Of a stretch of DNA of 64,000 bases, positions 27,551-64,000 are shown piece after piece. Origin of the DNA: Xestospongia muta (taxonomy: Eukaryota; Porifera; Demospongiae; Haplosclerida; Petrosiidae); the NCBI GenBank assembly GCA_963693285.1, contig OY848921.1:2123646-2187645 (forward strand), given 5' to 3'. Numbering within the stretch: the first letter of the stretch is position 1; each line of letters starts with the position of its first letter. The position numbers and the translations under genes were made by a program. The notes below the pieces were generated by a model. The model made no database searches. It was not told where the DNA came from and saw only the letters and a program-made list of their open reading frames with translations.

Positions 27551-27990
27551 CTCAATATCTACAGTGACTGTTAGTGTTGTTATAACCAGTCTACTCTCAA
27601 TTTAATATCTACTGTGACACAGTGACTGTTAGAGTTCATTTCACTAGTATATTCTTGACTCAATTCCTAAATATCTACTGTGACAAACAAAGTGACTGCC
27701 AGCATTCTCATTACCGATCTACTTTTCTCTCAATTACCTCAATATCTATTGTGATACAGTAAATGTGTAGTGTTTATTTCACCAGTCTACTCTTGACTCA
27801 ATTCCTAATATTACTGTGACACAGTGATTGTTAGTTTTGTTATTACCAGTCTAATCTTGACTCAATTACCTCAATATCTACTGTGACATATTGACTTTTA
27901 GCATTCTTACAGTCTACTCTTGATTGACTCAATTATCTTAGCATTTTCTGTGATTCAATATCTACTGTGTCATAAACACTCTTCAATAAT
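27550..27990 (+). repeat. 67-bp leader minisatellite, array of gene A
   Basis: About six degenerate copies of a unit containing CAATTACCTCAATATCTACT, GTGACA(TA/CA)GTGACTGTTAG and CCAGTCTACTCTTGACT. The same family precedes B, C, D and E. It lies directly upstream of the leader exon that ends at 28050. Confidence 0.85.
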
Positions 27991-28261: not shown

Positions 28262-31180
28262 ATGTCTGATAATCTCAGTCCACCTACTCTTGATGTACTG
28301 TGTGATGAACTAAGACAAGTAGTAGAATGGGATCAAGTAGCTCTAAGTCTCAAAGTACCTTTTGTCGATATTAAAAGTATTGAGACACAGTATTCTGAAT
28401 TAGCACAGCGCAAAATGCATTCTTTACAAAAATGGCTAGATCAAACCAACATTGTACATTCATGGCGTACAATAGCTGTTGCAGTAGAAAAAGTCAATCC
28501 TGCAGTTGCTGAGAACATTAGAACAAAGTATGCTACTATTCTAGATCTAGTACCATCCACTTCATCAAATACAGAATATAACAATGTAAATGCTTGCCAA
28601 AATGACCTCATTACTAAAGAGCAACAACAAATTAAGCGTGAGACAGTAGTGCTTGATAAAGACATAGTTGATAAAATCACTGACCTAGAAGATCAATTTG
28701 CCATGTTAGTTTCTAAGACAAAGATGTCTTTTGAAAAAAGACCAGAAATTCTTTCTGCATTGATTGAATACTTAAAGTCACGAGGGATAGATGAAGAAGC
28801 ATCATCACCAGATGAAGCCCCATGTATCACATATGACAAAGTCTTTAATATACTACGCAGACATTGGCATTACCTCAAATATCGACTTCTTCAGAGAATA
28901 ATTCATAACTTTCTTTTTGACACGGATTTGCTTTTTCAACTTCAGGAATATCAAGATCATATGACTGCATTTAAAAAGTCAACAAAAATGAAAGATCTTG
29001 CTGATTTTGTAAAGTCAAGGCAAAGTACTGCAGGTGAGGTACCTATAGCATTAAAGGTGAAGGAAGTGTGGTTAGATGTTACATTAGAACATTTTGAATT
29101 TCTTGTGAAGCTTCTCTTCAAAGAATATGATGAGTCACTTCAAGATATTGTTGTTCAAAAGGGTAGCATGTATGTAACCTGGAGTGTCTCTGAAAAAATA
29201 GCTAGCTTCATTATTACAAGATGTGGATTTGACAGCAATGTGCTAAAGGCAATTGGAGTCATCTCACTAAGCGTTGGTACTAATGTAGTCTTTAACAATG
29301 AATACTCACAAGATAATATGACATTTGACTCAGCACTATTGATAGCAGTTCAATCTGATGGTCCTCTTTCTGCTATATCTCTTCTTCTTGAAGTAGGTGG
29401 TAATCCTAACCTACTAACACAGTCAGGTAAAACAGTGATATCTACAGTATCCCAAATAAAAAATGAAAATAGTCCTGCAGTTTTACATGTAGCTAGTCTA
29501 TATGGTCACTCATCTGTTGTTTCTACCTTACTTAACTATGGGGCAGATCCTAACATAGCTATAAATAATGGCTGGACACCTCTTACGATAGCTAGTCAGA
29601 ATGGTCATGCTGATGTTGTTGAGTTATTACTAGAGAAGAATGTTCCTGTAAATACCCAAAACACAAATGGAACAACAGCTATTTTTATTGCTAGCCAGAG
29701 TGGTCACTCTTCTGTTGTATCTACCTTACTTAACAATGGGGCAGATCCTAATGTAGCTATAAATAATGGTGTGACACCTCTTATGATAGCCAGTCAGAAT
29801 GGTCATGCTGATGTTGTCAAGTTATTACTAAAGAAGAATGTTCCTGTAAATACCCAAAACACAGATGGAATTACAGCTATTTACATTGCTAGCCAGAATG
29901 GTCACTCTTCTGTTGTATCTATCTTACTTAACAATGGGGCAGATCCTAACATTGCTAAAAATAATGGCTGGACACCTCTTATGGTAGCCAGTGAGAATGG
30001 TCATGCTGATGTTGTTGAGTTATTACTAAAGAAGAATGTTCCTGTAAATAGCCAAACCACAGATGGAATTACAGCTATTTCTATTGCTAGTCAGAATGGT
30101 CACTCTTCTGTTGTTTCTACCTTAATCAACAATGGAGCATATCCTAACATAGCTAAAGATAATGGCTGGACACCTCTTATGATAGCCAGTCAGAATGGTC
30201 ATGCTGATGTTGTTGAGTTATTACTAGAGAAGAATGTTCCTGTAAATACCCAAAGCACAGATGGAATCACAGCAATTTTTATTGCTAGCCAGAACGGTCA
30301 CTCTTCTGTCATATCTACTTTACTTAACAATGGGGCAGATCCTAACGTAGCTACAAATAATGGCTGGACACCTCTTATGATAGCCAGTCAGAATGGTCAT
30401 GCTGATGTTGTCAAGTTATTATTAGAGAAGAATGTTCCTGTAAATACACAAAACACAAATGGAACTACAGTTATTTCTATTGCTAGCCAGAACGGACACT
30501 CTTCTGTCTTATCTATCTTACTTAACAATGGGGCAGATCCTAATATAGCTAAAAATAATGGCTGGACACCTCTTATGGTAGCTAGTCAGAATGGTCATGC
30601 TGATGTTGTTGAGTTATTACTAGAGAAGAATGTTCCTGTAAATACTCAAAGTACAGATGGAATTACAGCTATTTATATTGCTAGCCAGAATGGTCACTCT
30701 TCTGTTATATCTACCTTACTAAACAATGGGGCAGACCCTAACTTAGCCAGGATGAATGGCTGGACACCTCTTATAATAGCCTGTGCCAAAGGACATAACA
30801 ATGTTGTAAGAGAGTTATTAAAGACACAAATTAATGTCAATTATCAAACTCCTAGTGGTGCTACAGCATTACATTTATCAAGTCAATATGGGTTTGAGAA
30901 TATTACTATTCAGTTACTAGAATGTGGTAGCAATCCACTTCTCAAAGATGCTTTAGGTCGTACACCTATAGATATAGCTTATCAAGAAAGTCATCATAAC
31001 ATCATATCATTACTTCAAGATGCTATGTTTGGTTTCCATGGTGATGATCAGGTGTCGTTGGCTGGTTCTAATGATACAGGTTATACAACTGGTGTACCAT
31101 CAACTGATGACTCATCAGTAGTAGACTCTGATATTGCACAAATCTCTGATCTAGAAGAAGACATTATGGAAACCACTTAA
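28262..31180 (+). CDS. Death domain-ankyrin repeat protein A (intact, 972 aa)
   Basis: One long coding exon. A leader intron (28051-28255, CACTAAG/GTATGT to CATAG) ends six bases before the ATG. Residues about 1-95 form a Death domain (WDQVALSLKVPFVDIKSIE, KMHSLQKWLDQTN, SWRTIAVAVEKVNP). Residues about 138-345 are a conserved module shared by all five paralogues (HWHYLKYRLLQRII, SMYVTW, LKAIGVISLSVG) whose name I do not know. Residues about 350-925 hold 17 ankyrin repeats, alternating between an N-x-G-x-TPLMIASQNGH type and a DGITAIFIASQNGHSSVV type, giving a 198-bp DNA period. An acidic Ser/Asp-rich tail ends in SDLEEDIMETT. No NACHT, kinase or transmembrane segment. Likely an adaptor that pairs with another Death protein; ligand unknown. 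Confidence 0.92.
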   Translation: MSDNLSPPTLDVLCDELRQVVEWDQVALSLKVPFVDIKSIETQYSELAQRKMHSLQKWLDQTNIVHSWRTIAVAVEKVNPAVAENIRTKYATILDLVPSTSSNTEYNNVNACQNDLITKEQQQIKRETVVLDKDIVDKITDLEDQFAMLVSKTKMSFEKRPEILSALIEYLKSRGIDEEASSPDEAPCITYDKVFNILRRHWHYLKYRLLQRIIHNFLFDTDLLFQLQEYQDHMTAFKKSTKMKDLADFVKSRQSTAGEVPIALKVKEVWLDVTLEHFEFLVKLLFKEYDESLQDIVVQKGSMYVTWSVSEKIASFIITRCGFDSNVLKAIGVISLSVGTNVVFNNEYSQDNMTFDSALLIAVQSDGPLSAISLLLEVGGNPNLLTQSGKTVISTVSQIKNENSPAVLHVASLYGHSSVVSTLLNYGADPNIAINNGWTPLTIASQNGHADVVELLLEKNVPVNTQNTNGTTAIFIASQSGHSSVVSTLLNNGADPNVAINNGVTPLMIASQNGHADVVKLLLKKNVPVNTQNTDGITAIYIASQNGHSSVVSILLNNGADPNIAKNNGWTPLMVASENGHADVVELLLKKNVPVNSQTTDGITAISIASQNGHSSVVSTLINNGAYPNIAKDNGWTPLMIASQNGHADVVELLLEKNVPVNTQSTDGITAIFIASQNGHSSVISTLLNNGADPNVATNNGWTPLMIASQNGHADVVKLLLEKNVPVNTQNTNGTTVISIASQNGHSSVLSILLNNGADPNIAKNNGWTPLMVASQNGHADVVELLLEKNVPVNTQSTDGITAIYIASQNGHSSVISTLLNNGADPNLARMNGWTPLIIACAKGHNNVVRELLKTQINVNYQTPSGATALHLSSQYGFENITIQLLECGSNPLLKDALGRTPIDIAYQESHHNIISLLQDAMFGFHGDDQVSLAGSNDTGYTTGVPSTDDSSVVDSDIAQISDLEEDIMETT

Positions 31181-34446: not shown

Positions 34447-36888
34447 ATGTCTGATAATCTCAGTCCACCTACTCTCAATCTATTATGTCGTGAACTGAGA
34501 GAGGTAGTAGAATGGGATCAAGTAGCTGTAAGTCTCAAAGTACCTTATGTTGATATTAAGAGTATTGAGGCACAATACCCTGAATTATGGCGACGCAAAA
34601 TGCATTCCTTACAAAAATGGCTAGATCAAACCAACACTGTACATACATGGCGTACTATAGTTGATGCTGTAGAAAGAGCTAATTCTAGAGTTGCTGAGCA
34701 TATTAGAACAAAGTATGCTGCTGTTCTAGATCAAGTACCATCAAATTTACAAGTTAAAGAACATAGCAGTGAAGAACATGATGATCAACATCCATCTAGC
34801 ATAATTAAAGAGCAGGAACAAACTGAAAGCAATGTACATGTAGTACTTGATCAAAGCGTAACAGAAAAAATTACTGAGCTTGAACATAAATTTGCTGCAT
34901 TAGTTGCAGAAACACAAGAGTGTTTAGAACAGAGGCCAAACAAGCTTTTACCATTTTATCGATATCTGAGAATGCGACCATTAAAAGGTCATAAATCATT
35001 ACCAGATGAAGCCCATGTCACATACAACAAACTCTTTGATATACTAGATGATCACTGGCATTACCTCAAATATCAACTTCTTCAGAGAATAGTTGATGTG
35101 TTTCTTTATGATACCAATTTGCCTAGAAAAGTGAAGGAATATCAAGATGATTTGGCTGCATTCAAAGCGACAAAAATGAGAGATCTGGCAAATAAGATAA
35201 AATCCAAGCAGACTTATCAAGGTGAGATGACTGTAGAGTTGAGAGTGGAGGAAATGTGGCTAGATGTTCCAATACAACATTTTGAATATCAGGTTCAGCT
35301 TCTCTTTCAAGACAATGATAAGTCGCTTCGAGACATCACTGTTAGCCTAAGTAGTATGCACATTACCTGGAATGTTTCTAAAGAAATAGCTCTCCTTATT
35401 ACAAGGTCTAAATTTAATAGTAAAATGCTAAAAGCTATTGGAGTTATCTCACTAAAAGTTGGTAGTATCATTATCTTTAACAATGAAGATTTACAAGACA
35501 ACATGACATTTGACTCAGCTCTTTTAGCAGCTGTTCAATTTGGTAATCCTCTTTCTGCTATATCACTTCTTCTTGAAGTAGGTGGTAATCCTAACCTACT
35601 AACACAGTCAGGTGAAACAGTGATATCAAAATTAACTCAAATAAAAGATAAAAATGATGTGACTGTTTTATTTGTGGCTAGTCTATATGGTCACTTTTCT
35701 GTCATTTCTACCTTATTTAATAATGGGACAGATCCTAAGATAACTACAAATGATGGCTGGACACCTCTTATGATAGCTGGTGAGAATGGTCATGCTGATG
35801 TTGTTGAGTTATTAATAAAGAATAATGTTCCTGTGAATTCCCAAAGCACAGATGGAACAACAGCTATTTTTATTGCTAGCCAGAATGGTCATTCATCTGT
35901 CGTTTCTACCTTACTTGACAAGGGCGCAGATCCTAACATAACTACAAATGATGGTGGAACACCTCTTATAATAGCCAGTCAGAATGGTCATGCTGATGTT
36001 ATTGATTTATTACTAAATGAGAATGTTCCCGTAAATACCCAAAGCACAGATGGAACGACAGCTATTTTTATTGCTAGCCAGAACGGTCACTCTTCTGTTG
36101 TTTCTACCTTACTTAACAATGGGGCAGATCCTAACTTAGCTACAAATAATAGCATAACACCTCTTATGATAGCTAGTCAGTATGGTCATGGTGATGTTAT
36201 TAAATTATTACTAGAGAAGAATGTTCCTGTAAATACACAGAACACAGATGGAATGACAGCTATTTATATTGCTAGCAAGAATGGTCATTTTTCTGTCGTT
36301 TCTACCTTACTTAACATTGGGGCAAATCCTAATATAGCTACAAATGATGGTGCGACACCTCTTATGATAGCCAGTAAGAATGGTCATGCTGATGTTGTTG
36401 AGTTATTAATAGAGAATAATGTTCCTGTAAATACTCAAAGCATAGATAATATCACAGCTATTTATATTGCTAGTCAGAATGGCCACTCTACTGTTGTTTC
36501 TACGTTACTAAACAATGAAGCAGATCCTAACATATCTACAAACGATGACACAACACCTCTTATGAAAGCCAGTGAGAATGGTCATAGTGATGTCGTTGAG
36601 TTATTACTAAGGAAGAATGTTCCTGTAAATACCCAAAATACAGATGGAATGACAGCTATTTATTTTGCTAGCCAGAACGGTCATTCTTCTGTCGTTTCTA
36701 CCTTACTTAACAATGGAGCAGATCCTAACATAACTACAAACGATGACTGGACACCTGTTATGATAGCCAGTGAGAATGATCATGGTGATGTTGTTGAATT
36801 ATTACTAGAGGAGAATGTTCCTTTAAATACCCAAAGCACAGATGTAATTACAACTATTTCTATTGATGGACAAATTTTTCTATTTTAA
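34447..36888 (+). CDS. Death domain-ankyrin repeat protein B (3' truncated, 813 aa)
   Basis: Leader intron 34280-34440 (CTGAG/GTATGT to TTGTAG) ends six bases before the ATG. Same Death domain and middle module as A but the most diverged in sequence (for example PELWRRKMHSLQKW, RMRPLKGHKSLPDEA). Thirteen full ankyrin repeats are followed by a partial one that ends STDVITTISIDGQIFLF, a non-ankyrin tail. The terminal repeats and acidic tail seen in A and D are missing. The DNA after the break (from about 36860) matches the tail of the membrane-segment exon at 51060-51359 and the flank of the 45.6 kb fragment, so the end is a recombination junction. The frame stays open, so a shortened protein could be made. 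Confidence 0.85.
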   Translation: MSDNLSPPTLNLLCRELREVVEWDQVAVSLKVPYVDIKSIEAQYPELWRRKMHSLQKWLDQTNTVHTWRTIVDAVERANSRVAEHIRTKYAAVLDQVPSNLQVKEHSSEEHDDQHPSSIIKEQEQTESNVHVVLDQSVTEKITELEHKFAALVAETQECLEQRPNKLLPFYRYLRMRPLKGHKSLPDEAHVTYNKLFDILDDHWHYLKYQLLQRIVDVFLYDTNLPRKVKEYQDDLAAFKATKMRDLANKIKSKQTYQGEMTVELRVEEMWLDVPIQHFEYQVQLLFQDNDKSLRDITVSLSSMHITWNVSKEIALLITRSKFNSKMLKAIGVISLKVGSIIIFNNEDLQDNMTFDSALLAAVQFGNPLSAISLLLEVGGNPNLLTQSGETVISKLTQIKDKNDVTVLFVASLYGHFSVISTLFNNGTDPKITTNDGWTPLMIAGENGHADVVELLIKNNVPVNSQSTDGTTAIFIASQNGHSSVVSTLLDKGADPNITTNDGGTPLIIASQNGHADVIDLLLNENVPVNTQSTDGTTAIFIASQNGHSSVVSTLLNNGADPNLATNNSITPLMIASQYGHGDVIKLLLEKNVPVNTQNTDGMTAIYIASKNGHFSVVSTLLNIGANPNIATNDGATPLMIASKNGHADVVELLIENNVPVNTQSIDNITAIYIASQNGHSTVVSTLLNNEADPNISTNDDTTPLMKASENGHSDVVELLLRKNVPVNTQNTDGMTAIYFASQNGHSSVVSTLLNNGADPNITTNDDWTPVMIASENDHGDVVELLLEENVPLNTQSTDVITTISIDGQIFLF

Positions 36889-38528: not shown

Positions 38529-41500
38529 ATGTCTGATAATCTCAGTCCACCTACTCTTGATGTACTGTGTGATGAGTTGAGAGAAGTAGTAGAATGGGAT
38601 CAAGTAGCTGTAAGTCTCAAAGTACCTTTTGTCGATATTAAAAGTATTGAGACACAGTATTCTGAATTAGCACAGCGCAAAATGCATTTTTTACAAAAAT
38701 GGCTAAATCAAACCAACACTGTACATTCATGGCGTACAATAGCTGATGCAGTAGAAAAAATCCATCCTTTCGTTGCTGAGAACATTAGAACAAAGTATGT
38801 TATTATTCTAGATCTAGTACCATCCACTTCATCAAATGCAGAATATAGCAGTGTAAATGCTTGCCAAAGTGACCTCATTACTAAAGAGCAACAACAAATT
38901 AAGCATGAGACAGTGGTGCTTGATAAAGACATTGTTGATAAAATCACTGACTTAGAAGATCAATTTGCCATGTTAGTTTCTAAGACAAAGATGTCTTTTG
39001 AAAAAAGACCAGAAATTCTTTCTGCATTGATTGAATACTTAAAGTCTCGAGGGATAGATGAACAAACATCATCACCAGATGAAGCCCCATGTATCACATA
39101 TGACAAAGTCTTTAATATTCTACGCAGACATTGGCATTACCTCAAATATCGACTTCTTCAAAGAATAATTCATAACTTTCTTTTTGACACGGATTTGCCT
39201 GTTCAACTTCAGAAATATCAAGATGATATGACTGCATTTAAAAAGTCAACAAAAATGAAAGATCTTGCTGATTTTGTAAAGTCAAAGCAGAGTACTGCAG
39301 GTGAGGTACCTATAGCATTAAAGGTGAAGGAAGCGTGGTTAGATGTTACATTAGAACATTTTGAATTTCTTGTGAAGCTTCTCTTCAAAGAATATGACGA
39401 GTCACTTCAAGATATATTTGTACAAAAGGGTAGCATGTATGTAACCTGGACTGTTTTTGACAAAATAGCTAGCCTCATTATTACAACATGTGGATTTAAC
39501 ATCAATGTGCTAAAGGCGATTGGAGTCATCTCACTAACAGTTGGTACTAACGTAGTCTTTAACAATGAATGTATACAAGATGATATGACATTTGATTTAG
39601 CTCTGTTGAAAGCTGTTCAATCTGATGGTCCCTATTCTGCTATATCTCTTCTTCTTGAAGTAGGTGGTAATCCTAACCTACTAACACAGTCAGGTGAAAC
39701 TGTAATATCAAAAATATCCCAAATAAAAAATAAAAATGATGTGTCTATTTTATTTGGAGCTAGTCTATATGGTCACTATTCTGTCGTTTCCATCTTGCTT
39801 AATAATGGGGCAGATCCTAACTTAGGTGCAAATGATGGCACAACACCTCTTATGATAGCTAGTCAGAATGGTCATGCTGATGTTGTTAGGTTATTACTAG
39901 AGAAGAATGTTCCTGTAAATGCCCAAAATGCAGATGGAACTACAGCTATTTTTGTTGCTAGCCAGAACGGTCACTCTTCTGTTGTTTCTACTTTACTTAA
40001 CAATGGGGTAGACCCTAACTTAGCTAAAAATGATGGCGCAACACCTCTTATGATAGCCAGTCAAAATGGTCATGATGATGTTGTTAGGTTATTACTAGAG
40101 AAGAATGTTCCTGTAAATGCCCAGAACCAGATGGGATTACAGCTATTTTTGTTGCTAGCCAGAACGGTCACTCCTCCGTTGTTTCCACCTTACTTAATAA
40201 TAGTGTAGATACTGACTTAGCTAAAAATAATAGCTCAACAACTCTTATGATAGCCAGTCAAAATGGTCATGATGATGTAGTTAGGTTATTACTAGAGAAG
40301 AAAGTTCCTGTAAATGTCCAAAATGCAGATGGAATTACAGCTATTTTTGTTGCTAGCCAGAATGGTCACACTTCTGTTGTTTCCACCTTGCTTAATAATG
40401 GGGCAGATCCTAACTTAGCTGCAAATGATGACGCAACACCTCTTATGATAGCTAGTCAGAATGGTCATGGTGATGTTGTTGAATTACTACTAAAGAAGAA
40501 CGTTCCTGTAAATACCCATGCCACAGATGGAAGTACAGCTATTTTTGTTGCTAGCCAGAATGGTCACTCTTCTGTTGTTTCTACTTTACTTAACAATGGG
40601 GCAGATCCTAACTTAGCTAAAAATGATAGCGCAACACCTCTTATGATAGCCAGTCAAAATGGTCATGATGATGTTGTTAGGTTATTACTAGATAAAACAG
40701 TTCCTGTAAATGCCCAATGTACAAGTGGAATTACAGCTATTTTTGTTGCTAGCCAGAACTGTCACTCCTTCGTTGTTTCCACCTTACTTAATAATGGTGC
40801 AGATCCTGACTTAGCTAAGAACGATAGTGCAACACCTCTTATGATAGCCAGTCAAAATGGTCATGATGATGTTGTTAGGCTATTACTAGAGAAGAAAGTT
40901 CCCGTAAATGCCCAAATTGCAGATGGGATTACAGCTATATTTGTTGCTAGCCAGAACGGTCACTCTTCTGTTGTTTCCACCTTACTTAACAATGGGGCAA
41001 ATCCTAACTTAGCTATGGGTAATGGTTGGACACCTCTTATGATAGCTAGTCAGAATGGTCATCCTGATGTTGTTGAGTTATTACTAAAGGAGGATGTTCC
41101 TGTAAATACCCAAACCACAGATGGAATGACAGCAATTTTTATTGCTAGCCAGTATGGTCACTCTTCTGTCATTTCTACTTTGCTTAACAAACAGGCAGAT
41201 CCTACCATAGCTACAAATGATAGCTCAACACCTGTTATGATAGCCAGTCAGAATGGTCATTTTGATGTTGTAGATCTATTACTAAAGAAGAATGTACCAG
41301 TAAATACCCAAACCACAGATGGAATGACAGCTGTTTTTATTGCTAGCCAGTATGGTCACTCTTCTGTCGTTTCTGCCTTGCTTAACAATAGGGCAGATCC
41401 TACTGTAGCTACAAATGATAGCACAACACCTCTTATGATAGCTAGTCAGAATGGTCATGTTGATGTTGTTGAGTTATTACTAAAGAAGAAGGTTCCTGTA

Positions 41501-43009
41501 AATACCCAAACCACAGATGGAATTACAGCTGTTTTTGTTGCTAGCCAGAATGGTCACTTTTCTGTTGTTTCTGCCTTACTTAACAATGGGGGATATCCTA
41601 ACATATCTATAAATGATGGCTGGACACCTGTTATGATAGCCAGTCAGAATGGTCATGTTGATGTTGTTGAAGTATTACTAAAGAAGAATGTACCAGTAAA
41701 TACCCAAACCACAGATGGAATTACAGCTATTTACATTGCTAGCCAGAATGGTCACTCTTCTGTCGTTTCTGCCTTACTTAACAATGGAGCAAATCCTAAC
41801 TTAGCTGCAAATGATAGTTCAACACCTCTTATGATAGCCAGTCAGTATGGTCACAGTGATATTGTTGAGTTATTAATAAAGGAGAATGTTCCTGTAAATA
41901 CCAAAGCACTGATGGATCAACAGCTATTTACAATGCCAGCCAGAATGGTCACTCTTCTGTTATTTCAACCTTACTTAACAATGGGGCAAATCCTAACATA
42001 ACTGCAAACGATAGCTCAACACCTCTTATGATAGCCAGTCAGAATGGTCATTGTGATGTTGTTGAGTCATTACTTAAGGCGAATGTTCCTGTAAATAGCC
42101 AAAGCACAGATGGAATTACAGCTATTTACGTTGCTAGTCAGAACGGTCACTCTTCTGTTGTTTCTACCTTACTTAACAATGGAGCAGATCCTAACATAGC
42201 TAAAAATAATGGTTGGACACCTCTTATGACAGCCAGTCAGAGTGGTCATGGTGATATTGTTGAGTTATTATTAAAGAAAAATGTTCCTGTAAATACCCAG
42301 TGCGCTGATGGAATGACAGCTATTTACATTGCTAGCCATAATGGTCACTCTTCTGTCATATCTACCTTACTTAACAATGGGGCAGACACTAGCATAACTA
42401 GGTTTAATGGCTTGACACCTCTTATAATAGCCTGTGCCAAAGGACATGACATTGTTGTAAGAGAGTTATTAAAGACACAAATTAATGTCAATCATCAAAC
42501 TTCTACTGGTACTACAGCATTACATTTATCAAGTCGATATGGCTTTGAGAATATTACTATTCAGCTACTAGAATATGGGGCTAATCCACTTCTAAAAGAT
42601 GTTTTAGGTCATACACCTATAGATATAGCTTATCAAAAAGGTTGTCATAACATCGTATTACTACTTCAAGATTCTCTGTCTGGTTTCCATGATGATAATC
42701 AGGAGTCATTGGCTGGTTCTATTGAGTCAGGTTATATGACTGGTGGACTATCAAATGATCACTCATCAGTAGCAGACAATGATATTGCACAAATCTCTGA
42801 TTTAGAAGAAGAAGACAATTTTGATATAAAGACAAATATTTGTATACAACAGGTAAGATTTGACAAAATAATAATAATAGATTATTCATTGTAAAGACAA
42901 ATAGAACACTATAAGTTATTACTACTACTGTTACTACTACTACTACTATTATTATTATTATTATTGTTTTTGATATTAGTTATTAATGTTTCCATTACAG
43001 TGCATTTAG
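38529..43009 (+). pseudogene. Death domain-ankyrin gene C with two 1-bp frameshifts
   Basis: Leader intron 38297-38515 ends 13 bases before the ATG. The Death domain and middle module are closest to A and E. About 30 ankyrin repeats follow, the longest array here. Frame is lost by one missing base near 40125 and another near 41900; the frames 38529-40208, 40247-42001 and 42028-42894 each stay fully open up to the shift. Both deletions fall in the same linker of the repeat (VNTQ/VNAQ followed by xDG), next to a run of C and A. The acidic tail continues to a donor at 42853 (CAG/GTAAGA), and an acceptor at 43000 brings in a two-codon last exon (TGC ATT TAG), unlike A and D, which stop without an intron. 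Could be a young pseudogene, an assembly error, or real frame-shifted alleles. Confidence 0.8.
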
Positions 43010-46966: not shown

Positions 46967-49900
46967 ATGTCTGATAATCTCAGTCCACCTACTCTTGATG
47001 TACTGTGTGATGAACTGAGACAAGTAGTAGAATGGGATCAAGTAGCTTTGTATCTCAAGGTATATCATGTTGATATTAAGGGTATTGAAGCACAATACTC
47101 TGGATTAGCACAGCGCAAAATGTATTCTTTACAAAAATGGCTAGATCAAACCAACACTGTACATTCATGGCGTACTGTAGCTGATGCAGTAGGTAAAGTA
47201 AATCCTGCAGTTGCTGAGCATATCAGAACAAAGTATGTTACTATTCTAGATCAAGTATTAACTACTTCACAAAATGAAGAACATAGCATTGTAAGTGATG
47301 GTCAATATCCAACTAGCTCACATGATCCTATCATTAATGACCATCGACTCATTGTACTAGAACAAGAACCATCATCTTCAGCAAATGATGACCGATATCC
47401 AACTAGTAACTCTAGAATTGAAGAGGAAGAACCATTACCATTTGAAAAAGAGATAGTTGAACAGATTACTAACTTAGAAGACAGATTTGCCATGTTAGTT
47501 GTAGAAACACAACAGACTTTAGAGAAGAGGCCTAATGAGATTTTACTATTTTTTCGATACTTAAAAGTACGACTGAGAGATGAGGCATCATTACCAAATG
47601 AACCTGAAATTACTTGCAACAAATTGTTTGATATACTGAATGACCACTGGAATTATCTCAATTGTCTGCTTCTTCAGAGAATAGTTCAAAACTTTCTCTC
47701 AGACACTGAGTTGCCTGCTAAAGTACAAAAATATCAAGAAGATTTAGCTGCATTCCAGGAATCAACAAAAATGAAGAGCCTTGTTGACAAAATAAAATCA
47801 AAACAAACTTCAACAGATAATATTCAAATAGCGCTCAAAGTTAAGAAGATGTGGTTGGATGTCTCACTAAAACATTTTAACTTCCTTGTAAAGCTTCTCT
47901 TTCAAGAATACGACAAGTCCCTTCAGAACATAGCTGTCACATTAGGTTGTATGCATGTTATCTGGACTGTTTCTAAAAATATAGCTAGCCTAATTAAAAG
48001 AGCCAAGTATAGTAGTGAAGAATTAAAGGCTGTTGGAGTCATTTCACTAACAGTGGGTAAACATATAATTTTTCATTGTGAAGACTCACAAGATGACATG
48101 ACTTTTGACACAGCTCTGTTGAAAGCTGTCCATTGTGGTAATTGTGTTTCTGCCATATCTCTTCTTCTTGAGGTAGGTAGTAATTTTAACTTACTTACAC
48201 AGTCAGGTGAAACTGTGATATCTGCTTTGTCCGAAATAAAAAATGATAACTGTGCTACTATTTTATATGTGGCTAGCCTATATGGTCACTCATCTGTCGT
48301 TTCTATATTGCTTAACAATGGGGCAGATCCTAACATATTTATCAATAATGGCAGAACACCTCTTATGGCAGCCAGTGGAAATGGTCATGGTGATGTTGTT
48401 GAGTTATTTCTAGGAAATAACGTTCCTGTAAATAACCAAAGCATTGATGGAATGACAGCTATTTATGTTGCTAGCCAAAATGGCCACTCTTCTGTTGTTT
48501 TGACCTTACTTAATAATGGGGCAGATCCTAACATAACTACAAACGATGGGTGGACACCTCTTATGATAGCCAGTCATCGGGGTTATGGTGATGTTGTTGA
48601 GTTATTACTAGAGCAGAATGTTCCTGTAAATACACAAAGCACAAGTGGAATTACAGCTATTTATGTTGCTAGCCAGAACGGTCACTCTTCTGTTGTTTCT
48701 ACTTTACTTAACAATGGGGCAAATCCCAACATCGACAAAATAGATGGGCGGACACCTCTTATGATAGCTAGTGAAAATGGTCATGGTGATATCGTTGAGT
48801 TATTAATATACAAAAATGTTCCTGTAAATACACAAAGCACAAGTGGAATTACAGCTATTTATATTGCTAGCCAGAACGGTCACTCTTCCGTCGTTTCTGC
48901 CTTGCTTAACAATGGAGCGGACCCTAACATAGCTAAAAATGATCGCTGGACACCTCTTATGATAGCCAGTCAGAAGGGTCATGGTGATGTTGTTAAGTTG
49001 TTACTAAAGAAGAATGTTCCTGTAAATACCCAAATCGTAGATGGAATGACAGCTATTTATATTGCTAGCCAGAATGGTCACTCTTCTGTCGTTTCTGCTT
49101 TACTTAACAATGGAGCAGATCCTAACATTGCTAAAAATAATGGCTGGACACCTCTTTTGATAGCCAGTCAGAAGGGTCATGGTGATGTTGTTGAATTATT
49201 ACTAGAGAGTAAGATTTCTGTAAATACCCAAATTACAGATGGAATGACAGCTATTTGTAGTGCTAGCCAGAATGGTAACTCTTCTACTGTTTCTTTTTTA
49301 CATAACAATTGGGCAGATCCCAACCTAGCTGATAATGATGGCTGGACGGCTCTTATTGTAGCCAGCCAAAATGGTTATGTTGATGTTGTTAAGTTATTAC
49401 TAAACAAGAGTGTTTCAATAAATACCCAAACCAAAGAAGGAGCAACAGCTATTTATATTGCTAGCCAAAATGGTCACCTACCTATTGTTTCTATCTTACT
49501 TAGTAAAGGTGGAGACCCCAACCTAGCCAGGACCAATGGCTGGACACCTCTTATAATAGCTTCTGCCAGAGGACATGATGACGTTGTGGGAGAGTTACTG
49601 AAGACACAAATTAATGTTGATCAACATACTCCTACTGGTACTACAGCATTGCACTTCTCAAGTTATTACGGACATGAAAATATTGTTAGACAGCTATTGG
49701 AAGGTGGTGCTAATCCACTTATAAGAGACACGTCAGGTCAGACACCTCAAGATGTAGCTTATCAAAAAGGTCATTATAACATTGTATTACTACTTCAAAA
49801 CGCTATGACTGGTTTCCATGACGATGATCAGGGGTCATTGGCAGGTTCTATTGAGTCAGGATATACAACTGGTGGACTATCAACTGATGACTCATCAGTA

Positions 49901-57346: not shown

Positions 57347-59848
57347 TTAAATGTTAATAGACTCAGCTACAAATTTACAAATATTATCAGCAACTTCTTT
57401 ATTGTTGACAAGAGGACCCTCCACAGCTTTTATTAATGTAGCCCAATCAGCATTTGGCTGCTTTAACCACTCTTCAATCATCAATGATAATTTCATTGTA
57501 TCGGGATTGGTACCATGGTTCTGATGTATGCTCTGCAGTTTATCGAATGGAACTTCTAGTGCTTCACCTATCATATACCAGTGTGAGGCAATAGGAGCTA
57601 GTTGATTAAGGGCTTCTATTTTCTTTGGTTTTGTACCCTATATAGATTATAATTGATTAGTTAATCTATTTCAAAACTTACCTTCCCTGTCTCTTTAAAC
57701 CAAACTCCTTCCTCATCTGTAGGTTTGCGAAAGTTGATTGGATTTTCTTCACAATGAAGGGTGAGATTACTTGTTTGACCTTTTGCTGTAACTAGATAGT
57801 GAGGATGATTCACCTTAGCAGGTATGCCACTAGATTCATATCTAAAGAATAGGAGAATTAGAATTAAATAAGACATAATAGTTATAATAATAAATATTGA
57901 AGGCATCTATCATAACTGTATCCTACAATTACCTGAGTTGACCACAATCCTCAGATCCACACATAAATCGAACTTCTGTGGTCTGAACTGTGAATTTGCC
58001 TTGATCCAACACTCTAGCACTTGTATTGAGAGTTTCTATAACTTGGGTGACACAATCTTCCAGAACTGTCACTAGCTCTTGACATATGATATTAAAAGAC
58101 TGAGAAGAATGGCTGTCAGGAGCATATCGTGACACATTCACTTGCATAGCATAATGTAGATCGGTGAGTGTAACACGATCAATTTGTGACATACCATATA
58201 GAAATGTGACACGATTTCGAAAGATGCCATCATCAAAGAAAAGCTCACATGAAGGATGGCTGGCCATGGCTGTAGCTAAACGAGTAAAGAAACCTGGTGG
58301 TGTTAACTTAGTGGTAGGAAATACAATATGCAGAGGAACTGCATGTTTTAAATCACCAGATGGGAGTTCGTTAGGATCACCATGGAAAGATTTTAACACT
58401 GCTGGTAAAAAATAATGCTTGACAGCCTGATCATATTCCTTGGTATGGACTTCAGCAGCAAGACGAAAATTAATCAATAGCTCCATTATACTGTTTGGAT
58501 CAAGACCTTCACAACCCCTCCACACAGATTCATCATGATAAAATGGCTGTACTAAGACACCCTTTTCACGAAGCAATTCCCTCCAACGCCATGTACGAAC
58601 CCCTGTATCTCTTTCTTTTAGAGTGAATACCCTCCCAAGAACATCCACAAACCATTTAGGATTAATGATAACAGCATTCTGCAAACCATCAATATGAGGG
58701 TAGAACAACAGGACTCCTACATCATGATAAAATAGAAGGACTTTAGGGACGTCTTCAGAAGGAATTTTGCAGGCTACCCCAATAGAATGAGCTTCTTCAA
58801 GATCAATGACATTTTTACTATATTGCTGGATCACTTTTCGGAAGAGAACCCAACTAATTGGAGTTTCAACAATGAGCTTCTCAGAAGTGAAATTGCAAAC
58901 AGCTCTTCGTAATTTTGCAAAATTAGGATCTTCAAATTTCCCTTTACCAGAAGTGGTGTTGTCGACAATGAGGGTATCTTCAATAAGTGGTGCAAAGATT
59001 TTGTCTCGGTAATGTGATTCAAGTTCATCCTTCACTTCTGTTTTCTTTTGTTCATTCAATTGATCTCCGTGTGTACCAATGCAGTACATACGAGGGTAAT
59101 CTGGAATGGCCCCATCGTCATATGCTATAAGATGACTATGGATATTGGCCATCCAGCTGAGTAATAACTCCAGTGTGGTTTCATTGACTTTATTGTCAAA
59201 CTCTTGTACTCCCTGAGTACTAATCACCGAATCCCACTTTTCATCAAAGGACTTCAATGCATTGAACATAAGAAAGAACGTGGTACGTGGAGTAAGAAAG
59301 GCTGGGAGGATTTCAAGAAAGACAGGTTGACCACCACAATCCCATATATGCAAGAGAGGTTGAGACTTCATCTCCATAAGATCATCTTTAGACATTTCAG
59401 TGGCACGTTCAAAAGCCTTCGAAAAGATTGATTCCACAGTTTCTTCTTCGATATTTTGAACTTGCTCTTCATTCAATGTCACAGCTTTAATCATAGCAGC
59501 AATAGCAGATATAGGATAGAGACTTATGGCAGCCACTTTGCTAACTAGGGATCTGGGTGTTGAGCTAGAATGATATACCATAGCAAGTAGTTGTGCCATT
59601 TCATTTAGCTCATCATCAGGTGTTACTTCTTTCCATTCATCTTCTGGATCCACAGCATGCCACTTATAATTAACTGGTTGAACATAGCTGATATCAGACA
59701 CAATGGTACTGTTTGTTTCAGGATCAAATGGTAGTTTCATCAAAGATCGCTTTAGACTAGTTTTCCCAATGCCTGCTGTGCCGAGCAGTATCATGCGTCC
59801 ATATGCTATATCCAATTTTCCCTTCTTTAGAGCTCTTCTGTAAGCGCT
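57347..59848 (-). CDS. Roc-COR GTPase with C-terminal Death domain (ROCO family; 5' end unresolved)
   Basis: Three minus-strand exons join in phase: 59848-57933, 57841-57682, 57637-57347, giving 788 residues; the first is entered in phase 0 and has no ATG at its start, so more exons lie upstream. It begins SAYRRALKKGKLD, then a Roc domain with P-loop GTAGIGKTS (residues about 23-31), switch II IWDCGGQPVF (about 170) and GTHGDQ (about 260) in place of NKxD. A COR domain follows (SWVLFRKVIQQYS, VLLFYHDVGVLLFYP, INPKWFVDVLGRVFTL). The last about 85 residues are a Death domain (APIASHWYMIGEALEVPFDK, MIEEWLKQPNADWATLIKAV). Roc-COR-Death is the tail layout of DAPK1. Proposed role: GTP-switched signalling with Death-domain partners, perhaps the neighbouring Death-ankyrin proteins; that link is inference. 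Confidence 0.9.
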
Positions 59849-60019: not shown

Positions 60020-63000
60020 TCTACCTACAGGCTAGTACATGTATAGATATTATCACTAACATTCATTATAAAATCTGTTTCATCCATATATTACACTATA
60101 ATTACTAACACAATTATTATATCTACCTACAGGATAAACAGGGTCAGAAAATAGAGGTCAAGATGTTGTCAGAGTGGCATTAAGAAAGAAAAAGGAAAGG
60201 CAGATAAAATTAAAAAAATTGTAATGATATCTATACATGTACTTCATCAATACTTTACATTGATAACTAACAAATTATTAAATCAACTTACCATCTAAAT
60301 AGTTGTAGAAAATACAGATCAAGTTGTTGTCAGAGTGGCATTAAGAAAGAAAAAAAGGAAAGATATATAAAATACAAACATTAGTAATACAATATATACA
60401 TGTACTATATTGAGACATTACACTATAGTTACTAACACAATTATTATATCTACTTACCAGCTAAACAGTGTCAAAAAATACAGATCAAGTTGTTGTCGGA
60501 GTGGCATTAAGAAAGAAAAAAGGAAAGATATATAAAATACAAACATTAGTCATACAATATACACATGTACTTTATCAATATTTTACACTGATAACTAACA
60601 AATTATTAAATCAACTTACTTCCTAAATAGTGGAAGAAATACAGATCAAGTTGTTGTCAGAGTGGCATTAAGAAAGAAAAAAGGAAAGATATATAAGATA
60701 CAAACATTAGTTATACAATATATACATGTACTATATTGAGACATTACACTATAATTACTAACAAAATTATTAAATCAACTTACGTCCTAAATAGTGGCAG
60801 AAAATACAGATCAAGTTGTTGTCAGAGTGGCATTAAGAAATAAAAAAGGAAAGATATATAAAATACAAACATTAGTAATACAATATATACATGTACTATA
60901 TTGAGACATTACACTATAGTTACTAACACAATTATTATATCTACTTACCGGCTAAACAGTGTCAAAAAATACAGATACAATATATACATGTACTATATTG
61001 AGACATTACACTATAGTTACTAACACAATTATTATATCTACTTACCGGCTAAACAGTGTCAAAAAATACAGATCAAGTTGTTGTCAGAGTGGCATAAAGA
61101 AATAAAAAAGGAAAGTTATATAAAATAGAAACATTAGTAATACAATATATACAAGAACTTCATCAATTCTTTACTCTGATAACTAACAAATCATTAAATC
61201 AACTTACTTCCTAAATAGTGGCAGAAAATACAGATCAAGTTGTTGTCAGAGTGGCATTAAGAAAGAAAAAAAGAAAGATATATAAAATACAAACATTAGT
61301 CATACAATATATACATGTACTTCATCAATACTTTACACTGATAACTAACAAATTATTAAATCAACTTACAATCTAAATAGTGGCAGAAAATACAGATAAA
61401 GTTGTTGTCAGAGTGGCATTAAGAAAGAAAAAAGAAAAATATAAGATACAAACATTAGTCATACAATATATACATGTACTATATTGAGACATTACACTAT
61501 AGTTACTAACACAATTATTATATCTACTTACCGACTAAACAGTGGCAGAAAATACAGATCAAGTTGTTGTCAGAGTGGCATTAAGAAAGAAAAAAGGAAA
61601 GATATATAAAATATAAACATTAGTCATACAATATATACATGTACTTCATCAATACTTTACACTGATAACTAACAAATTATTAAATCAACTTACAATCTAA
61701 ATAGTGGCAGAAAATACAGATAAAGTTGTTGTCAGAGTGGCATTAAGAAAGAAAAAAGAAAAATATAAGATACAAACATTAGTCATACAATATATACATG
61801 TACTATATTGAGACATTACACTATAGTTACTAACACAATTATTATATCTACTTACCGACTAAACAGTGGCAGAAAATACAGATCAAGTTGTTGTCAGAGT
61901 GGTATTAAGAAAGAAAAAAGGAAAGATATATAAAATACAAACATTAGTCATACAATATACACATGTACTTTATCAATACTTTACACTGATAACTAACAAA
62001 TTATTAAATCAACTTACTCTCTAAATAGTGGGAGAAATACAGATCAAGTTGTTGTCGGAGTGGCATTAAGAAAGAAAAAACGATAGATATATAAGATACA
62101 AACATTAGTTATACAATATATACATGTACTATATTGAGACATTACACTATAGTTACTAACACAATTATTATATCTACTTACCGGCTAAACAGTGTCAAAA
62201 AATACAGATCAAGTTGTTGTCAGAGTGGCATTAAGAAAGAAAAAATGAAAGATATACAAGATACAAACATTAGTCATACAATATATACATGTACTATATT
62301 GAGACATTACACTATAGTTACTAACACAATTATTATATCTACCTACCATCTAAACAGTGTCATAAAATACAAATCAAGTTGTTGTCAGAGTGGCATTAAG
62401 AAAGAAAAAAGGAAAGTTATATAAAATAGAAACATTAGTAATACAATATATACATGTACTTCATCAATACTTTACACTGATAACTAACAAATTATTAAAT
62501 CAACTTACGTGCTAAATAGTGGCAGAAAATACAAATCAAGTTGTTGTCAGAGTGGCATTAAGAAAGAAAAAAGGAAAGATATATAAAATACAAACATTAT
62601 TCATACAATCTATACATGTACTTCATCAATACTTTACACTGATAACTAACAAATTATTAAATCAACTTACAATCTAAATAGTGGCAGAAAATACAGATCA
62701 AGTTGTTGTCAGAGTGGCATTAAGAAAGAAAAAAGAAAAATATAAGATACAAACATTTGTCATACAATATATACATGTACTATATTGAGACATTACACTA
62801 TAGTTACTAACACAATTATTGTATCTACTTACCGGCTAAACAGTGTCAAAAAATACAGATCAAGTTGTTGTCAGAGTGGCATAAAGAAATAAAAAAGGAA
62901 AGTTATATAAAATAGAAACATTAGTAATACAATATATACAAGAACTTCATCAATTCTTTACACTGATAATTAACAAATCATTAAATCAACTTACTTCCTA

Positions 63001-64000
63001 AATAGTGGCAGAAAATACAGATCAAGTTGTTGTCAGAGTGGCATTAAGAAAGAAAAAAGGAAAGATATATAAAATACAAACATTAGTCATACAATATATA
63101 CATGTACTTCATCAATACTTTACTCTGATAACTAACAAATTATTAAAACAACTTACAATCTAAATAGTGGCAGAAAATACAGATCAAGTTGTTGTCAGAG
63201 TGGCATTAAGAAAGAAAAAAGGAAAGATATATAAAATACAAACATTAGTCATACAATATATACATGTACTTCATCAATACTTTACACTGATAACTAACAA
63301 ATTATTAAATCAACTTACAATCTAAATAGTGGCAGAAAATACAGATCAAGTTGTTGTCAGAGTGGCATTAAGAAAGAAAAAAGAAAAATATAAGATACAA
63401 ACATTTGTCATACAATATATACATGTACTATATTGAGACATTACACTATAGTTACTAACACAATTATTATATCTACTTACCGACTAAACAGTGGCAGAAA
63501 ATACAGATCAAGTTGTTGTCAGAGTGGCATTAAGAAAGAAAAAAGGAAAGATATATAAAATACAAACATTAGTCATACAATATATACATGTACTTCATCA
63601 ATACTTTACACTGATAACTAACAAATTATTAAATCAACTTACATACTAAACAGCGTCATAGAATACAGATCAAGTTGTTGTCAGAGTGACATTAAGAAAG
63701 AAAAAAGGAAAGATATATAAGATACAAACATTAGTCATACAATATATACATGTATTTCATCAATACTTTGCACTGATAACTAACAAATTATTAAATCAAC
63801 TTACTTGCTAAATAGTGGCAGAAAATACAGATCAAGTGGTTGTCAGAGTGGCATCAAGAAAGAAAAAAGGAAAGATATATAAAATACAAACATTAGTCAT
63901 ACAATATATACATGTACTATATTGAGAGATTACACTATAGTTACTAACACAATTATTATATCTACCTACCATCTAAACAGCGTCATAAAATACAAATCAA
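60020..64000 (-). repeat. Tandem array of about 162-bp units upstream of the Roc-COR-Death gene
   Basis: About 25 units run from near 60020 to the window end and beyond it. Spacing of the marker triplets is 162 bp in most cases (range 162-167, once 97). Two subtypes alternate irregularly. Subtype 1 has, on the minus strand, GTAAGTTGATTTAATAATTT after the triplet; subtype 2 has GTAAGTAGATATAATAATTG. All share ATGCCACTCTGACAACAACT and TTTTCTGCCACTATTTAG or close variants. The unit has no open frame of useful length. The two units nearest the gene (near 60034 and 60125) are degraded. Confidence 0.95.
60292..63972 (-). other. 24 candidate 3-nt microexons (AG-NNN-GT)
   Basis: In each unit the minus strand has a branch-point-like CTGAC 35 nt before AG, a pyrimidine-rich stretch, (T/C)TTTAG, three bases, then GTAAGT or GTAGGT. 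In 5'-3' order, with the lower coordinate: 63970 ATG; 63805 CAA; 63643 TAT; 63481 TCG; 63319 ATT; 63157 ATT; 62995 GAA; 62833 CCG; 62671 ATT; 62509 CAC; 62347 ATG; 62182 CCG; 62018 AGA; 61856 TCG; 61694 ATT; 61532 TCG; 61370 ATT; 61208 GAA; 61046 CCG; 60949 CCG; 60784 GAC; 60620 GAA; 60458 CTG; 60292 ATG. Two more triplets (CCT at 60125 and 60034) lack a good acceptor or unit context. Eleven different triplets, no stop codon. Each would add one codon and keep frame; the next exon (59848) starts in phase 0. Splicing of 3-nt exons is hypothesis. Confidence 0.5.

Follow-up and report, generated by a model that had tools for sequence, protein, structure and literature searches.

The window analysed here, a stretch of 64,000 nucleotides from the sponge Xestospongia muta (C5:2123646-2187645, C5 being contig OY848921.1 of a 158-Mb genome in 28 contigs), carries on its minus strand a Roc-COR-Death gene and, 5′ of it, a tandem array of putative microexons that are each a single codon long (Table 1). 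Within the window, every array unit presents TTTAG, exactly three bases and a donor, which reads GTAAGT in 22 units and GTAGGT in two, and the triplet takes 11 distinct values; a recount agrees with the original prediction on the number of units, their strand, the triplet length, the two donors and the 11 values. Read 5′ to 3′ on the minus strand, the triplets run ATG CAA TAT TCG ATT ATT GAA CCG ATT CAC ATG CCG (units 1 to 12) and AGA TCG ATT TCG ATT GAA CCG CCG GAC GAA CTG ATG (units 13 to 24). Unit spacing is 162 bp in 16 of the 23 gaps, and the introns are mostly 159 nt. The motif CTGAC, previously ascribed to every unit, is present in 21 of the 24; in two it is replaced by CCGAC, and the 97-bp short unit at 60951 lacks both. 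All 24 units do lie in the interval first given for the array, but the window edge cuts the array, which runs on to C5:2196521.

Table 1. Minus-strand features at the array and the Roc-COR-Death gene; positions are counted from the first base of the window.
Feature	Position	Strand	Remarks
24 tandem units with 3-nt microexons, part of the 79-unit array A4	60292..63972	minus	AG before each triplet, GTAAGT or GTAGGT after
Decayed unit	60131..60133	minus	CCT before GTAGGT; acceptor TTTAG changed to TTTAT; by eye
Candidate last microexon, CCT	60029..60031	minus	Between CTAG and GTAGGT; poor pyrimidine tract; by eye
Roc-COR coding exon	57932..59848	minus	639 codons open; acceptor TATATAG, phase 0
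Open frame downstream of the Roc-COR exon	57664..57906	minus	No Pfam match
Death domain open frame	57350..57637	minus	PF00531, 23.6 bits against a cut-off of 22.6

Variation among the units is concentrated in the triplet, as had been claimed. In an alignment of the 24 units, the three triplet columns hold entropy ranks 1, 2 and 3 of 132 columns, at 1.76-1.91 bits against an average of 0.33 for the other columns, and the flanking AG and GT have zero entropy. The same columns rank 1-3 of 142 when all 79 units of the array are aligned, so that the three positions are more variable than the rest of the unit in both data sets.

The exon that follows the array begins with the codons AGC GCT TAC (S A Y R R A L), encodes the P-loop GTAGIGKTS and matches the Pfam domains Roc (PF08477, 40.5 bits, cut-off 27) and COR-A (PF16095, 50.6 bits, cut-off 35.3). 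With a Roc GTPase domain followed by COR, the window gene is a ROCO gene; the two shorter frames downstream presumably belong to it as well, the Death frame as one of its exons. Genome-wide, the Roc-COR exon is present in about 58 copies that are close to full length, counted as those covering the query from residue 1-3 to residue 443 or beyond. Among the best 120 of 454 homologues of this exon, those that are named are Amphimedon queenslandica proteins with at most 49% identity. One partial A. queenslandica model starts right at the boundary of the Roc exon (AYERALKEQG...), as if upstream exons were undetectable.

Neighbouring DNA places the window units at the end of A4, an array of 79 units (C5:2196521-2183939), upstream of which are a GGA microexon (C5:2197055) and an ATG microexon (C5:2197160), about 9.5 kb past the window end. 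A4 is one of seven arrays on C5 (A1-A7), all on the minus strand and grouped in two clusters, with 18-130 units each and 517 units altogether, counted after three non-units were dropped; the six besides A4 (A1, A2, A3, A5, A6 and A7) lie at 2.20-2.27 and 2.74-2.79 Mb. Five of the seven (A3-A7) precede same-strand Roc-COR exons that are 82-100% identical to the window Roc exon. A1 and A2 are followed by no Roc-COR exon; instead, the antepenultimate microexon of each is TAG (C5:2253857-2253859 and 2220968-2220970), with two further units after it; if its inclusion is optional, this TAG could act as a skippable stop codon. The units show satellite organisation with higher-order repeats.

The triplets carry several marks of codons. 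Only 2 of the 517 are stops, against 20.8 expected and a minimum of 8 in 5000 shuffles, and both are the TAG at the same position in A1 and A2; counting the three dropped triplets as well gives 3 of 520. Among the 297 distinct combinations of triplet and flank there is one stop, where 13.2 are expected and shuffles reach no lower than 3; reading the joined codons in the two remaining frames yields 26 and 42 stops. A homologous ATG microexon, first spotted by eye in A1 and A4 and then found by pattern search, stands ahead of A1, A4, A5 and A7; in A6 and A3, judged by eye, ATG is again the first unit that is well formed. At the other end, all five C5 genes show NNN GCT/GTT TAC/TAT in phase 0 after the acceptor TATATAG of the Roc exon. 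Canonical acceptors and donors surround an in-frame exon, as in spliced coding microexons generally, and the donor is GTAAGT or GTAGGT in 481 of the 517 units.

The length of the exon is nearly invariant. When acceptor and donor were scored separately at C5 sites and the exon was left free to take 0-30 nt, 497 of 502 sites gave a 3-nt exon, and the plus-strand reading, tried in the same scan, gave no site. The five exceptions comprise one 4-nt and two 9-nt exons, a 7-nt exon that allows a reading as AAG followed by GTTAGT, and a 0-nt exon that is a shifted CAG. The introns are not so constrained: 468 array introns, roughly 120-205 nt with a median of 151 nt, take 68 distinct lengths, and on division by three the three possible remainders are shared by 170, 137 and 161 introns. 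Codon usage differs from that of the Roc exons, the third base being G in 44.7% of C5 microexons versus 16.4% of 2551 codons in four Roc exons, and CCG accounting for 14 of 25 proline codons in distinct units versus 0 of 122 in the Roc exons. G is favoured at the base before a donor, and an excess of third-base G is expected here if the last base of the codon doubles as the base preceding the donor.

Similar units recur elsewhere in the genome. Exact matches to the motif CTATTTAGNNNGTAAGT, in which 14 bases are fixed, number 474 versus 7 for the reversed pattern, and TTATTTAGNNNGTAAGTAT has 51 versus none in the reversed control, counts that exclude a chance origin; a comparable core whose gap is 4 nt gives 20 matches versus 50 in its reversed control, and 1 of the 20 lies inside an array. 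Among the matches listed for CTATTTAGNNNGTAAGT (100 of 474; T-first 60 of 60, C-first 100 of 126 and A-first 100 of 120), groups are found on C1, C5, C6, C7, C12 and C14 and singles on C2, C4 and C10, while the TTATTTAGNNNGTAAGTAT matches are at C12:1.52-1.69 Mb (45), C1:10.68 Mb (3), C10:3.50 Mb (2) and C14:1.79 Mb (1). On C7, C10, C12 and C14 each match has a Roc-COR copy or fragment 3′ of it and shares its strand. By eye, three further intron types, one on C7, C14 and C1 (units of about 205 nt), one on C12 and one on C6, are unlike those of C5, and in the stretches read off C5 (8 kb on C14, 7 on C7, 4.4 on C12, 3 on C6 and 3 on C1) the exon is again 3 nt at 28 of 28 acceptor-like sites on C7, 28 of 28 on C14, 6 of 7 on C12 and 3 of 5 on C1, the sites missed on C12 and C1 being without a donor within range; C6 has six 3-nt and two 9-nt exons at 8 sites. 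The genes on C7, C14 and C12 have a phase-1 Roc acceptor, to which phase 0 is bridged by one additional exon, identified by eye (19 nt on C7 and on C14, 25 nt on C12); the acceptor of the C14 exon is poor.

The link to Roc-COR genes is frequent but not general. That arrays always precede a Roc-COR gene was considered but is not supported in view of the motif groups at C1:10683296-10701121 and C6:836892-843855, near which (C1:10.68 Mb and C6:0.84 Mb) the Roc-exon genome search found no Roc hit, and of two matches at C6:1.52 Mb that sit 3′ of the nearest Roc-COR copy. The converse, that arrays precede all Roc-COR copies, is likewise unsupported, since the large same-strand Roc-COR clusters at C5 6.3-6.9 Mb and C1 8.2-9.0 Mb have no motif match in the complete T-first and TTATTTAGNNNGTAAGTAT lists or among the C-first and A-first matches listed.

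Joined in order, the A4 codons read M G LRRQNPPQEYYHQREPRDDYHTVPPYSIIEPMQYSPRPSRPRDDYHTVPYSIIEPMQYSIIEPIHMPRSISIEPPDELM and then enter the Roc exon, the string opening MG-LRRQNPPQEYYHQREPRDDYHTVPPYSIIEPMQYS... The phrase PRDDYHTVP(P)YSIIEPMQYS occurs twice in A4, and its two copies are distinguished by a single whole codon, in line with the prediction of unit turnover. A7 shares MGLRRQ with A4 and then diverges, despite Roc exons that are 92% identical, and the A6 string is MSDDEFEDDFYYDDDERREL... The A1 array, from C5:2273207 to 2253857, reads as ATG, 119 more codons and the TAG microexon, and gives MEWWIAIGVATNL...PIVYKGLIIGGIGILGLGIGLYHMYRRCREERLRLEERLERLERL...ETEE, a string of 120 residues spread over about 19 kb in one-codon exons throughout. 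One stretch of it is transmembrane-like, and its tail is charged and resembles a helix; by eye, its first 25 residues (MEWWIAIGVATNLATKVAVAAVTSV) are fairly hydrophobic, while A4 and A7, beginning MGLRRQ..., are without a hydrophobic leader.

Unit structure, exon length, frame, stop avoidance, start position, phase and recurrence are read directly from the DNA, and the proposal of single-codon microexons ahead of the Roc exon survives the tests of stops, first ATG, TAG near the end, 3-nt length, phase 0 and recurrence on other contigs. On this evidence we consider it very probable that the arrays are real coding microexons forming a variable N-terminus of ROCO (Roc-COR-Death) proteins, which changes by turnover of satellite units. 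If the array is transcribed, each minus-strand unit would offer a pyrimidine-rich stretch, AG, one codon, a near-perfect GTAAGT donor and a short intron. Intron definition would then remove each short intron, the mRNA gaining one codon per step, a stepwise route made plausible by the short introns and strong donors. Translation of the window gene would start at the ATG microexon at C5:2197160 and run into the phase-0 Roc exon. Unequal exchange among the near-identical introns would create, delete and reorder units, each event adding or removing exactly one residue and leaving the frame intact. That the inclusion of a codon may be optional we only infer, as we do an immune-like role of the variable N-terminus; a part of the N-terminus in diversity, analogous to that proposed for the ROCO exon arrays of brown algae (PMC11378527), is a guess. 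A bolder reading, which we hold tentatively and would not yet favour, is that A1 is a whole frame, from start to stop, in one-codon exons and that, together with the sister arrays linked to ROCO genes, it makes up a diversity system of codon resolution, where proteins may be edited residue by residue through satellite turnover and possibly through optional inclusion.

Several observations weigh against these coding microexons. A start ATG was looked for in A2 and none was found; a TAG-bearing look-alike at 2243802 was rejected as the A2 start, being not homologous to the start region of A1, and the best alignment of the A1 start region with the A2 5′ region scores 30, where shuffles reach 39. 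The Roc exon of A5 (C5:2781940-2783280) carries a TGA, so this copy may be a pseudogene. A 4-nt exon, GTGG, occurs at 2232611, and several units have broken sites. The models used in the length scan were trained on 3-nt units, though each end was scored alone, and units within an array are related through duplication, so that counts of them are not independent. Codons ending in G are not usual in the C7 and C14 arrays, those of C7 being mostly AAA, GAA, CAA and ATG. The order of hydrophobic residues was set aside as a proof of coding, the Kyte-Doolittle maximum over 19 residues being 1.82 in A1 (P 0.06 versus shuffled order) and 1.80 in A2 (P 0.09), a hint at most. The joined A4 and A1 peptides had no match in a protein collection; this was weighed as neutral, as such exons are hardly callable from DNA and the negative is uninformative.

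Four other explanations were weighed. The tandem organisation of the units with higher-order repeats is what an untranslated satellite would have, its splice-like motifs being fortuitous and its triplet drifting; however, the depletion of stops, the ATG in first place, the constant 3-nt length over unlike introns and the agreement of the array strand with that of the Roc-COR gene, where one follows, all speak against it, and the tests of stop content, exon length and phase likewise disfavour a drifting satellite that lacks a coding role, leaving this account very improbable. We give almost no credence to units that are recursive-splicing stepping stones in a long intron, with noncoding bases between AG and GT. 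The juxtaposition of AG and GT is the layout of a recursive site, however a recursive site retains no bases or has them removed, whereas three bases would stay at each step here; in addition, the triplets avoid stops and begin with ATG, and the version with a 4-nt gap is at background. An alternative closer to our own reading is that the microexons are coding but used by choice, each transcript taking a subset, one or none, the array being mainly a diversity generator with no fixed string. Skipping a 3-nt exon leaves the frame unchanged, two more units follow the TAG microexon in A1 and A2, and brown algae are reported to splice alternatively the tandem same-phase exons that lie upstream of ROC-COR (PMC11378527). 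The avoidance of stops in A1 and A2 save at one shared place, the ATG at the front and the phrase-like order of A4 nevertheless suggest serial reading, and the donors are uniformly strong with no hint of regulated sites, so we judge choice among exons unlikely, though deserving of some weight.

The way in which the triplets change bears on the last alternative, a targeted process, either mutation or conversion focused on the triplet, that swaps codons at the microexon. Between closest neighbours (173 pairs with 0-2 differences per 80 flanking bases) the triplet differs in 34 pairs, at 0.102 per site versus 0.0075 in the flank, an excess of about 14-fold, and of 340 unit pairs with at most 2 differences per 100 flanking bases, 37 differ at two or three bases of the triplet, while other non-overlapping 3-nt places in the same scan reach a maximum of 10 (at the window edge) with a median of 0. 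Both the multiple-base changes and the per-site excess are in keeping with targeted change, however gene conversion of introns with selection on codons could yield an equal pattern, and a dedicated process has in our view only a slight probability; no gene for such a mechanism was found, although no search was aimed at one. Homogenisation of the introns together with codon selection may explain the triplet pattern. The differences in close pairs comprise 66 that change the amino acid and 10 that are silent; random change gives about 3 to 1, and the ratio alone is not far from that expectation.

The nearest counterparts are the micro-exon genes (MEGs) of schistosomes and the ROCO exon arrays of brown algae, and the sponge exons fall outside the defining exon sizes of both. 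In the parts of the literature consulted, MEGs consist mostly of very short exons in multiples of three, whose skipping is frame-neutral and yields variable proteins, and these proteins are secreted or membrane-anchored (PMC10526429, PMC5825161). The text of one source gives exons of 6-81 bp, mostly 15, numbering 10-20 per gene and separated by introns of 0.1-5 kb, while its abstract gives 3-81 bp, so that a lone 3-bp MEG exon is possible (PMC10526429). The sponge arrays resemble MEGs in their tiny symmetric, frame-neutral exons, but differ from them, with their symmetric exons of 6-36 or 6-81 bp making up most of the coding region, in that the exons are nearly all 3 nt, form tandem satellite arrays and on C5 mostly stand before a Roc-COR GTPase; the window gene also has an exon of 639 codons. 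Excerpts on the brown-algal genes describe 72-bp, phase 2 leucine-rich repeat (LRR) exons in tandem before ROC-COR, alternatively spliced and presumed to generate diversity (PMC11378527). Both systems place an array of fixed-length, same-phase exons upstream of ROC-COR, however the sponge exons are 3 nt, in phase 0 and without a domain unit, and a Death domain is present in the C-terminal part. Microexons of 1 nt with conserved GTRAGT donors are reported from plants (excerpts of PMC8831610), and microexons of 3 nt or longer have been counted in mouse, in an account that also notes, in the portion available, that common aligners lose exons below 8-10 nt (PMC7821500). In such sources the isolated 1-3-nt microexons of animals and plants are single or paired in ordinary genes, unlike the long runs of the sponge. 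No description of runs of one-codon (3-nt) exons was found among the entries listed in searches of the open-licence PMC literature, preprints and subscription journals being outside this scope.

If spliced as proposed, the arrays would be the most finely divided protein-coding regions known to us. They would offer a natural test of minimum exon size and of the ordered splicing of long microexon runs, and would show a way for satellite DNA to turn into protein, with each repeat contributing one residue, in a ROCO family that is large and immune-like. As gene callers and aligners lose such exons, the N-termini, and perhaps the entire A1 protein, would be missing from annotations.

Of the two minor elements between the A4 units and the Roc exon, the decayed unit is probably not spliced, judging from its changed acceptor, and it is doubtful that the other CCT serves as the final microexon. 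On C6, an array at C6:842400-845399, near which the Roc-exon genome search gave no Roc-COR match, has exons of either 3 nt or 9 nt (GAAGCACCG, GAAGTACCG), and in one of the 9-nt exons an inner GT could close the exon after GAA. Downstream of the array on C1 there is an open frame resembling a signal peptide. Elsewhere in the window are four coding-looking blocks of 198-bp tandem repeats, putatively ankyrin-like (29502-30781, 35687-36865, 39769-42386 and 48262-49560), and satellites with units of 67-133 bp at 27604, 37386, 46367 and 53036.

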